42,946 nucleotides of DNA, from positions 1 through 42,946 of the forward strand of contig NZ_CALFBQ010000051.1 of the NCBI RefSeq assembly GCF_937951745.1, in the 5' to 3' direction. How positions within the stretch are numbered: the first letter of the stretch is position 1; the number at the start of each line of letters is the position of its first letter. A program made the translations under genes and the position numbers. Positions 21,168 to 37,073 of the stretch are shown here, piece by piece. This DNA is from an uncultured Chloroflexus sp. GTDB taxonomy: Bacteria; Chloroflexota; Chloroflexia; Chloroflexales; Chloroflexaceae. Below the pieces are notes generated by a model. That model was not told where the DNA came from. It worked only from the letters and a program-made list of their open reading frames with translations, and did not search any database.

Positions 21168-21188
21168 GTAGTTTTGATTCCGTACTAC
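21168..21188. promoter_or_regulatory. Dyad operator candidate A: GTAGT-N11-ACTAC
   Basis: A perfect inverted repeat of 5-base arms with an 11-base spacer, 14 bases downstream of the putative -10 box of bchM. One of four such sites, all at bch genes; in all four the base after the left arm is T. Confidence 0.6.
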
Positions 21189-21249: not shown

Positions 21250-21270
21250 GTAGTTCCAAGTTTGGACTAC
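21250..21270. promoter_or_regulatory. Dyad operator candidate B: GTAGT-N11-ACTAC
   Basis: Second copy before bchM, starting 82 bases after site A (about eight helical turns), 22 bases before the GTG start and just upstream of the GAGGAG ribosome binding site. Followed by CTGCGAG, which also follows the bchN copy (site D). Confidence 0.6.
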
Positions 21271-21292: not shown

Positions 21293-21973
21293 GTGCTAGA
21301 GATCTCACAGCACAAAGCTCAACTGCGCGACTACTTCAACGGTTTGGGCTTTGAACGCTGGTCAGCCATCTACGGCAACGCTCCGCTGTCCCTCGTCCGG
21401 CAAAGTATTCGCGAAGGCCACAACCGCATGCTGGCGGTTGCCGATGCGTGGCTTGCCGATCAACCGCCCCCAACCACGGCGCTTGATGTCGGTTGCGGCG
21501 TTGGTCTGTTCAGTCTCATGTTAGCCCGCCGTGGCTACCGAGTGCGCGCCGCCGATATTGCGCCGCAAATGGTTGCTGCTACCCAGCAGGCCGCCGCCGA
21601 AGCCGGCTTGGCAGATCGCATTGAGTGCATCGAAGCCGATATCGAGTCACTACGCGAACCGGCGCAGGTGGTGGCTTGTTTCGATGTCTTGATTCATTAC
21701 CCACAACCGGCCTTCGGCCAACTCTGCACCCATCTCGCTAACCTCACCGAGCAGACTTTGCTGCTAACATACGCACCATACAGCTCGTTGCTCGCTACCC
21801 TGCACCGGATCGGCGGCTGGTTCCCGCACAGCCAACGCCGCACTGAGATTCAGATGATTCGCGACCAAGAGGTCGTTAGCATTCTGACCCGCGCCGGATT
21901 GCGCGTGCGCCGCGTCCATCCGATCCGCAGCCGGTTCTATCACGTTACGTTGATCGAGGCCAATCGGGTCTAG
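21293..21973 (+). CDS. bchM: Mg-protoporphyrin IX O-methyltransferase BchM
   Basis: The 226-residue SAM methyltransferase has an N-terminal HKAQLRDYFNGLGFERWSAIYG segment typical of BchM/ChlM. A SAM loop ALDVGCGVGLFSLMLARRG, an acidic AADIAPQM strand end and a FDVLIHYPQPAF motif follow. It methylates the C13 propionate of Mg-protoporphyrin, the step between Mg-chelatase (bchH downstream) and the cyclase (acsF downstream). The start is a GTG with GAGGAG six bases upstream. Two dyad operator candidates and an extended -10 box lie before it. Length is normal for the family. Confidence 0.95.
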   Translation: MLEISQHKAQLRDYFNGLGFERWSAIYGNAPLSLVRQSIREGHNRMLAVADAWLADQPPPTTALDVGCGVGLFSLMLARRGYRVRAADIAPQMVAATQQAAAEAGLADRIECIEADIESLREPAQVVACFDVLIHYPQPAFGQLCTHLANLTEQTLLLTYAPYSSLLATLHRIGGWFPHSQRRTEIQMIRDQEVVSILTRAGLRVRRVHPIRSRFYHVTLIEANRV

Positions 21974-21985
21974 TTTCATAAGGTT

Positions 21986-22006
21986 GTAGTTCAGAAACGC
22001 GACTAC
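21986..22006. promoter_or_regulatory. Dyad operator candidate C: GTAGT-N11-ACTAC
   Basis: Third copy of the 21-base dyad, in the 44-base gap between bchM and the small unknown gene. It abuts the AGGAG ribosome binding site and ends 11 bases before the ATG. Confidence 0.6.
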
Positions 22007-22017
22007 AGGAGCGAGAC

Positions 22018-22353
22018 ATGCGACGATTGCTAGCATTGGTGGCCCTTGGCGCAGCGGCGTTCGCGCTGCACAAGTGGTATAACCGCGAGGTGTTGCTCGA
22101 GGGGGAGGGGTTTGTTCGCTTGCAGAGCGAGCACGAGCATTTCCATTTCCACGTCGATCTGCCGCCCGGTATGGAGATTCAGCCCGGCGATACGCTCGAA
22201 ATTATGCATTTGCCGCCGACTGAAGATGGTCGCACCAACGGTGAGATCTGCTACCGCAGCCCGATCCGGCTGTATAAGGCAAGCTGGCTGCGCCGCTTTC
22301 TGACCAAGAAGAGTAGCCTCGTCGAGATCAACGAGCTGGTCGAGCATCCGTAA
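22018..22353 (+). CDS. Small membrane-anchored protein of unknown function between bchM and acsF
   Basis: This 111-residue protein is one I do not recognise. It opens with a membrane anchor (RRLLALVALGAAAFALHKWY, residues 2-21). A His/Glu-rich segment SEHEHFHFHVDLPPG (about 37-51) follows, then a beta-rich body (GDTLEIMHLPP; EICYRSPIRLYKASWLRRFL) with a basic patch. It has a good ribosome binding site (AGGAGCG) and its own dyad site C. Its position between the methyltransferase and the oxygen-dependent cyclase suggests an accessory role for AcsF, a substrate hand-over function, or metal or redox supply (inference). It does not obviously resemble Ycf54 as I know it. Coding nature is supported by spacing, ribosome binding site and operon context. 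Confidence 0.85.
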   Translation: MRRLLALVALGAAAFALHKWYNREVLLEGEGFVRLQSEHEHFHFHVDLPPGMEIQPGDTLEIMHLPPTEDGRTNGEICYRSPIRLYKASWLRRFLTKKSSLVEINELVEHP

Positions 22354-22415: not shown

Positions 22416-23543
22416 ATGTTTTGGATCAATCCGTTGATGATGGAAATGCCCGGTGAGTTTAGCCGTACCACTCGCCACGCCCTCAAAGAAGCTATTCTCT
22501 CGCCTCGCTTTTACACCACCGATTTTAAGGCTATTGATAAGCTAGAAATCGACCGTAATGGCATGCGCGACGAGTTCGATTGGATTCGCGACGAGTTTGC
22601 CTACGACTACAACCGTACCCACTTCCGCCGCACCGATGAGTTTTTGCAGAACTTTGATGATATGCCCGAGCGCGATGCGTTTATTGACTTTCTCGAGCGC
22701 TCATGCACCGCCGAGTTCAGCGGTTGTCTGCTCTATGCCGAGATGGTCAAGCATCTGCACGATCCGACCATGCGGGCAATTTTCAAGTATATGAGCCGCG
22801 ATGAGGGTCGCCACGCCGGCTTCCTCAACCGCACGATGGCCGACTTGAATGTCGCTCTCGATCTGACCGTCTTGCAGAAGCGCAAGAAGTATACCTACTT
22901 CCAGCCGAAGTTTATCTTCTACTCGGTGTACCTCTCGGAGAAGATCGGCTATTCGCGCTATATCACTATCTATCGCCATCTGGAAAAGAATCCGCAATAC
23001 TGCATTCACCCGATCTTCAAGTGGTTTGAGCAGTGGTGTAACGATGAGTATCGCCACGGCGAGTTCTTCGCTATGCTGATGCGCTCGCAGCCTGAGATGC
23101 TCGAAGGGGCGAACCGGCGCTGGATCCGCTTCTTCTTGCTCGCGGTCTATGCGACGATGTACCTCAACGATGCCCGCCGGGCTAATTTCTACGCCGCGCT
23201 GGGTCTGAATTGGCGCGACTACGACCAGAAGGTGATCCGGCTGTGTAATGATATTTCGACCCAAGTCTATCCTGAGACGATGAATCTTGATGATCCGCGC
23301 TTCTTTGGCTACATGGATAAGCTGGTCGAGTATGACCGCAAGCTGCGCGAACTGGAGGGACGCAACGATCCGGTGGCATTGGCTCAGTCGGCTCGCCTCA
23401 AGGCGGCGATTGCGCTGCGCCTGCTGGCGATTTATCGCCTGCCCACCCGCAAGACGACCGAGGCGATTCGCTGGAAGGGGTTGCCCGGCTTCCCCAATTA
23501 CCCCGGCCCCAATCGGCCGCAGCGGGTGATGGCAGCCGATTAG
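22416..23543 (+). CDS. acsF: Mg-protoporphyrin IX monomethyl ester (oxidative) cyclase AcsF
   Basis: The 375-residue di-iron protein has two E-x-x-H motifs, DEGRHAGF (E130, H133) and DEYRHGEFF (E211, H214). An N-terminal MFWINPLMMEMPGEFSRTTR and a FLERSCTAEFSGCLLYAEM helix with another iron-ligand glutamate are also present. AcsF forms the isocyclic E ring using O2. The start at 22416 has AAGGAG seven bases upstream; a 20-codon in-frame extension back to 22356 is rejected. It lies between the small unknown gene and bchH. An oxygen-dependent cyclase in a facultatively anaerobic phototroph implies an anaerobic BchE elsewhere (inference). Confidence 0.96.
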   Translation: MFWINPLMMEMPGEFSRTTRHALKEAILSPRFYTTDFKAIDKLEIDRNGMRDEFDWIRDEFAYDYNRTHFRRTDEFLQNFDDMPERDAFIDFLERSCTAEFSGCLLYAEMVKHLHDPTMRAIFKYMSRDEGRHAGFLNRTMADLNVALDLTVLQKRKKYTYFQPKFIFYSVYLSEKIGYSRYITIYRHLEKNPQYCIHPIFKWFEQWCNDEYRHGEFFAMLMRSQPEMLEGANRRWIRFFLLAVYATMYLNDARRANFYAALGLNWRDYDQKVIRLCNDISTQVYPETMNLDDPRFFGYMDKLVEYDRKLRELEGRNDPVALAQSARLKAAIALRLLAIYRLPTRKTTEAIRWKGLPGFPNYPGPNRPQRVMAAD

Positions 23544-37052: not shown

Positions 37053-37073
37053 GTAGTTCCAAATCGGCACTAC
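37053..37073. promoter_or_regulatory. Dyad operator candidate D: GTAGT-N11-ACTAC
   Basis: Fourth copy of the dyad, between the putative bchN -10 box and the GAGGAGG ribosome binding site, ending 18 bases before the ATG. Its first ten bases (GTAGTTCCAA) are identical to site B. Confidence 0.6.

Follow-up and report, generated by a model that had tools for sequence, protein, structure and literature searches.

How AcsF forms the fifth ring of (bacterio)chlorophyll is an old puzzle that has been settled through the recognition of helper classes, the cyclase falling into three classes according to whether it works with no helper, with Ycf54 or with BciE (PMC7319587). Ycf54 is described as a small protein that assists the AcsF cyclase of cyanobacteria and plants (PMC13297055), and BciE as being required for AcsF activity in Alphaproteobacteria (PMC13297055; PMC7319587). 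Anoxygenic AcsF proteins from outside the Alphaproteobacteria have been assigned to the helper-free class (PMC7319587), and a 2026 review likewise places the Chloroflexi in the AcsF-only class (PMC13297055). Regarding the expression of the enzyme in these bacteria, acsF of Chloroflexus aurantiacus is described as unchanged with oxygen, other roles have been proposed and the role of AcsF is debated (PMC4944227); in mats containing C. aggregans, acsF transcription was about fourfold higher by day (PMC8004040). Among the matches listed from the open-licence literature, we saw none that describes a relative of BciE in Chloroflexota. Moreover, querying the literature for the locus tags Caur_2588 to Caur_2590 returned the genome paper alone, which names Caur_2588 (bchM) and Caur_2590 (acsF) and not Caur_2589.

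Here we describe a small gene located between bchM and acsF in a window of 42,946 nucleotides from an uncultured Chloroflexus sp. (contig NZ_CALFBQ010000051.1). We consider it probable that its product assists the oxygen-dependent cyclase as an auxiliary subunit of the BciE type, an added N-terminal helix tethering it to the membrane. What would be new, as judged from sequence, is a homologue of BciE that is anchored in the membrane and linked to acsF across the Chloroflexales, and whose function we infer.

The small gene, its product and an operator-like dyad

The small gene extends on the forward strand from the ATG at 22018 to the stop codon at 22351-22353 (22018-22353) and encodes a 111-residue, membrane-anchored BciE-like protein (P0001), a reading founded on selection, orthologues and homology. 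The gene order is bchM, small gene, acsF and then bchH, all features given below with a strand being on the forward (+) strand unless stated otherwise. Curated equivalog models identify both bchM, encoding Mg-protoporphyrin IX methyltransferase (21293-21973, +; TIGR02021, 203.5 bits for a cut-off of 158.9), and acsF (22416-23543, +; TIGR02029, 436.7 bits for a cut-off of 192.5). The small open reading frame is a real coding sequence under purifying selection. Indeed, between genomes G000 and G126, the differing sites number 8, 7 and 51 at codon positions 1, 2 and 3, respectively, and 48 of the 111 codons differ synonymously and 8 non-synonymously.

The N-terminal membrane helix, which serves as the anchor, spans codons 2-21 (22021-22080, +). 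It appears as a helix in the AF2 model, with pLDDT values of 83 over the first ten residues and 85 over the next ten, and every one of the 34 Chloroflexota orthologues reaches a 15-residue hydropathy maximum of 1.52 or more. The BciE-like core covers codons 31-109 (22108-22344, +), as delimited by hhalign (columns 31-108 against columns 13-89 of the alphaproteobacterial protein), and it includes the segment EHEHFHFHVD at codons 38-47 (22129-22158, +), defined from the alignments and containing H39, H41, H43 and H45. These four histidines, together with H110, are invariant in the 34 aligned Chloroflexota orthologues, and H41, H43 and H45 are located on one predicted strand of the AF2 model, which was computed from a four-sequence alignment (pLDDT 72.2, pTM 0.57). 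The C-terminal tail SSLVEINELVEHP (codons 99-111; 22312-22350, +) is strongly conserved in the alignment and nevertheless has a pLDDT below 50 in this monomer model, a feature which could reflect an ordering of the tail upon AcsF binding or merely the thin four-sequence alignment.

The original prediction, made from the letters of the window, had proposed a 111-residue frame at these coordinates between bchM and acsF, with a single N-terminal membrane helix, a HEHFHFHVD segment (residues 39-47) and a dyad site of its own, and all of these features are confirmed. It had also described a compact basic C-terminal part, a description that is correct for residues 87-98, which are basic, but not for the conserved end VEINELVEHP, which is acidic.

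The dyad has the form GTAGT-N11-ACTAC, an exact copy of which (21986-22006) precedes the start codon of the small gene by 11 nt. Two other exact copies precede bchM (21168-21188 and 21250-21270) and a fourth one, also exact, is found 18 nt upstream of the likely bchN ATG (37053-37073). Allowing up to one mismatch, the window thus contains four matches, all of them exact, for 0.25 expected, a number reached in none of 100 shuffles. In 29 of 37 genomes, the 120 nt preceding the small gene contain an exact dyad, which appeared in none of 7400 base-shuffled upstream regions; genome G432 is counted as a miss because its contig ends 34 nt upstream of the gene. Within 120 nt after the stop codon of the small gene, no exact dyad was found in any of the 37 genomes, the best candidate having three mismatches. 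With the dyad upstream and none downstream, the small gene is likely the first gene of the acsF unit. Elsewhere in G000, the dyad precedes hemN-like and protoporphyrinogen-oxidase-like genes forming a hemN-hemY-like pair (L066, 3465-3485). Genome-wide, the motif is barely enriched, with six sites in G000 versus four for a control pattern, and seven versus eight in G110. Judging from these positions, the dyad likely marks a tetrapyrrole regulon, which would include bchM, the small gene, bchN and the hemN-hemY-like pair.

Distribution of the gene pair in Chloroflexales

We searched 82 Chloroflexales genomes for AcsF (TIGR02029), BchM (TIGR02021), BchE (TIGR02026) and, using an 18-row profile, for the small protein. 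AcsF exceeded the curated cut-off in 37 of them; the full-length small gene occurs in the same 37 genomes and in no others, in each case directly upstream of acsF on the same contig and strand, and none of the 45 genomes without acsF over the cut-off contains a full-length copy. The constant association with acsF and the absence from relatives lacking it, which had been anticipated for an AcsF factor, are therefore both observed in this set of genomes. Within these limits, the small gene also shares with BciE the feature of occurring only with acsF.

Based on BchM, 52 genomes were counted as phototrophs, 50 being over the cut-off and two being added with a partial (G238) or a split (G406) gene. 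G430, which has BchE but no BchM over the cut-off and is 83% complete in 3840 contigs, was excluded, as was G419, and G409 was scored as acsF-bearing although its acsF is spread over three frames. Fifteen of the 52 phototrophs are devoid of an intact acsF and none of these has a full-length small gene; all 15 possess BchE, that of G408 being in two fragments, which score under the cut-off. One acsF-less genome, G347, has two BchE genes over the cut-off (contigs C31 and C28).

On a BchM tree of the 52 phototrophs, in which several rows have long end branches, the presence of acsF changes at least nine times, seven of these changes being forced by supported branches, versus a mean of 13.3 changes after label shuffling. 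The observed states of the small gene are identical to those of acsF, all 7 independent pairs agreeing in direction (sign test, p 0.0156), and BchE does not follow the acsF changes. We examined the gap between bchM and bchH in 12 of the 15 acsF-less phototrophs (G260, G406 and G416 were left out). Nine of the 12 gaps keep the exact operator and four clearly keep the end of acsF: G024 retains nothing but fragments of the two genes, in G335, the small protein passes into the acsF end after approximately 35 residues, and in G288 and G415, the acsF end alone has been kept. In G401 and G402, only the last five or six acsF codons are recognisable, possibly by chance. Such varying remnants indicate that the pair has been excised with varying ends while bchM and bchH stayed in place. 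As adjacency eases joint deletion, this co-loss is weaker as proof of a common function.

The pair is also found away from bchM in three genomes. In G206 (on a contig of 157 kb) and G410, the small gene and acsF remain together, and the surroundings that were fetched contain neither bchM nor bchH; the G206 pair follows an LPG_synthase_TM gene, and the pair of G407 has similar neighbours. This relocation without bchM or bchH designates acsF, and not bchM, as the partner of the small gene. The small gene as a partner of bchM was hence rejected, as bchM outlasts the loss of the gene and the pair can be located elsewhere. In G432, one contig (C8; L056) contains an intact pair, and another (C554; L057) breaks off within the small gene, past approximately residue 36, near the start of the G335 deletion; this assembly possibly mixes strains with and without acsF.

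All 15 acsF-less phototrophs are also devoid of hemF, and the losses thus fit a general move away from oxygen, so that part of the co-occurrence pattern may reflect oxygen use. From this, and from the adjacency of the two genes, one could argue that the small protein serves general aerobic membrane physiology, being lost with acsF since both genes are useless in anaerobes and sit side by side. However, hemF is also missing from 14 of the 37 genomes with the pair, which means that the small gene follows acsF and not hemF; the two genes are found together away from bchM in G206, G410 and G407, and a homologue adjoins acsF in another phylum. We regard this explanation as quite improbable and retain a role tied to the cyclase itself.

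Outside the Chloroflexales, genome G281 contains a divergent acsF (45% identity to that of the window; L053, 7315-8421, minus strand). A search for the small protein in G281 gave only a 27-column match at E 1.03, and no BciE-like protein was found in this genome even with a joint Chloroflexota-alphaproteobacterial profile. Not every Chloroflexota AcsF thus has the small protein, which counts against a phylum-wide rule. None of the window's bch genes is present within the 16 kb fetched around the G281 acsF.

Relationship to the alphaproteobacterial bciE-slot protein

Eleven plasmid records contain acsF, and in the nine alphaproteobacterial ones that were opened, a "hypothetical protein" of 96-98 residues is encoded directly before acsF. 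When one of these proteins was used as a query, matches appeared in 10 of the 11 records; only that of the cyanobacterium Kovacikia gave none. These alphaproteobacterial slot proteins are putatively BciE. This assignment is founded on the operon order puhA-puhBC-bciE-acsF-puhE described in one paper (PMC10576062), and not on the sequence of R. sphaeroides BciE; no NCBIfam model matched the four slot proteins searched.

By profile comparison, residues 31-109 of the small protein are homologous to the alphaproteobacterial bciE-slot protein, as represented by the nine proteins compared, among which R. sphaeroides BciE does not figure. Indeed, hhalign aligned the 34 Chloroflexota proteins with four slot proteins with a probability of 95.2% and an E value of 2.5e-8 over 75 columns of 98. 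With nine slot proteins, the score was 45.8, versus a mean of 10.9 (SD 2.2, maximum 18.0) for 200 column shuffles and 12.4 for a reversed-profile control. Searching with an HMM of the nine slot proteins ranked all 34 Chloroflexota proteins (E 2.4e-6 to 0.025) above 20,000 shuffled decoys (best 0.26), and in the reverse direction, the Chloroflexota HMM placed all nine slot proteins ahead of the decoys, with E 0.21 for the weakest protein and 0.81 for the best decoy. Nine residues (H45, V46, P56, G57, D58, G75, A88, E106 and L107) are invariant across 18 Chloroflexota and the nine alphaproteobacterial sequences.

The likeness could in principle have arisen by convergence, with an AcsF partner emerging independently in Chloroflexota. 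The identity of the slot proteins to P0001 is low (22-27%), the membrane helix is an addition, and a 39-column N-terminal stretch (IPP...VEPGDT) in common with acetamidase/formamidase (PF03069; hhalign 91%, using one sequence) illustrates that the PGD hairpin occurs elsewhere. Nonetheless, the match with the slot proteins is collinear over its 75 columns, far above shuffles and above decoys in both search directions, and the gene position is the same in both groups, making such an independent origin most improbable. The PF03069 likeness itself covers a third of the small protein, with no match listed for P0001 and a best E value of 0.032 in 4 of 34 orthologues. Of the weak matches seen in other Chloroflexota (E 5e-5 and worse, and E 0.001 and worse), one was examined and proved to be the formamidase of G385. 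This G385 acetamidase/formamidase (L033, 1447-2583) contains a PGDT hairpin, and it is its N-terminus that has the 39-column stretch in common with the small protein.

Both the slot protein and the Chloroflexota small protein are encoded directly upstream of acsF, the Chloroflexota gene being usually located between bchM and acsF whereas the alphaproteobacterial one follows puhC. Compared with the slot protein, the Chloroflexota form is distinguished by a membrane helix at the N-terminus and by three additional invariant histidines in the strand region, and it ends at HP without the alphaproteobacterial C-terminal extension. In the nine alphaproteobacterial relatives, no comparable hydrophobic helix was found (hydropathy maximum of at most 1.09), and the membrane anchor is thus peculiar to the Chloroflexota form.

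The conserved histidines raise the question of whether the protein donates a metal or a pigment instead of acting as a structural subunit, H110 and the strand-region histidines loading iron into the AcsF diiron site or carrying Mg-porphyrin from BchM to AcsF. Such a function would be in line with the invariance of H39, H41, H43, H45 and H110 in the Chloroflexota orthologues, with the common strand predicted for three of them and with the location of the gene within the AcsF unit. However, of these five histidines, H45 alone is invariant across both phyla, three of the nine alphaproteobacterial relatives have no counterpart of H43, and no metal-binding family matched P0001 over a cut-off, the best being a zinc-binding chemoreceptor domain at E 0.29. 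We therefore consider a donor function unlikely and favor an auxiliary subunit of the BciE type.

Concerning other families, P0001 had no match over the cut-off in Pfam (the best, at the E value just given, being CZB), NCBIfam or PHROGs, and accordingly no clear match to an unrelated family. With the 34 orthologues, the best Pfam matches were DUF7314 (E 0.0023, in one) and FmdA_AmdA (E 0.032, in four). Ycf54 (PF10674), a small AcsF-cyclase auxiliary as the small protein is proposed to be, differs from it in having no sequence match: none was listed for P0001 or the 34 orthologues. In addition, Ycf54 was over the cut-off in none of 13 genomes (best E 0.176), one being over it in the control set. 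Searches of the PDB by sequence gave no match with the 18-row profile, one at E 1.3 with the 34-row alignment and, with the nine alphaproteobacterial proteins, ten matches all at E 0.38 or worse. Using the AF2 model of the small protein, Foldseek found no match at E 0.001 and VIA-align reached Z values of at most 4.3, the tailspike and ferredoxin-reductase/NOX FAD barrel rows being too weak. Such model-based fold searches indicate neither a known nor a new fold. No relatives were found in viral contigs, and plasmids yielded a single chance-level match to P0001 (E 6).

Possible role in the oxygen-dependent cyclase

The homology to the slot protein and the linkage to acsF, namely co-occurrence, joint loss, joint relocation and the operator, together argue for a BciE-type cyclase subunit. 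The auxiliary cyclase factor of the Ycf54 or BciE kind put forward by the original prediction is thereby supported, by the co-occurrence with acsF and by the bciE-slot homology, as a likely function. The small protein would bind AcsF, the conserved C-terminal tail and the strand region being its probable contact sites, and would hold the enzyme at the membrane, where the Mg-protoporphyrin monomethyl ester derived from BchM is available. By analogy with BciE in Alphaproteobacteria, it might be needed for a stable or active cyclase.

The AcsF of Chloroflexales has a C-terminal tail (codons 353-375; 23472-23540, +), as defined from the alignment of 37 Chloroflexales AcsFs and 11 others. W353, L356, F359 and Y362 are invariant in the 37 sequences, typically as WxGLxGFPNYPGP, and no such tail was seen in the AcsFs of G281 and Kovacikia or in the nine alphaproteobacterial ones, which make up the 11 others. 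In the small protein, the conserved tail is a candidate docking segment, and we would guess that it contacts the AcsF tail. A read-through fusion of the small gene and acsF from L006 was also modelled; it has a pLDDT of 43.9 with AcsF mostly unfolded and says nothing on docking.

With the AcsF-only class, the Chloroflexales have AcsF as the core enzyme in common, but their acsF comes with a BciE-like gene in 37 of 37 genomes, which contradicts in a testable manner the AcsF-only assignment made in the review (PMC13297055). A BciE-like gene tied to acsF would shift the Chloroflexales between cyclase classes and BciE would extend beyond Proteobacteria and Myxococcota. On a broader and doubtful reading, a cyclase of AcsF and a BciE-type protein would be old and common to Chloroflexota and Proteobacteria, the AcsF-only form would derive from it by loss, and the Chloroflexales would represent a fourth class, in which a membrane-fixed BciE binds the AcsF tail and its histidines handle iron or Mg-porphyrin. 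If the small protein is a cyclase subunit as we propose, the Chloroflexus AcsF may fail on its own, and an established complementation assay is available in Rvi. gelatinosus devoid of both cyclases (PMC7319587).

Finally, three genomes (G414, G420 and G428) contain acsF and the small gene with no BchE over the cut-off (best E 2.6e-34, 2.2e-8 and 1.1e-36, respectively), and AcsF is thus presumably their working cyclase. These phototrophic Chloroflexales are possible oxygen-dependent pigment makers.
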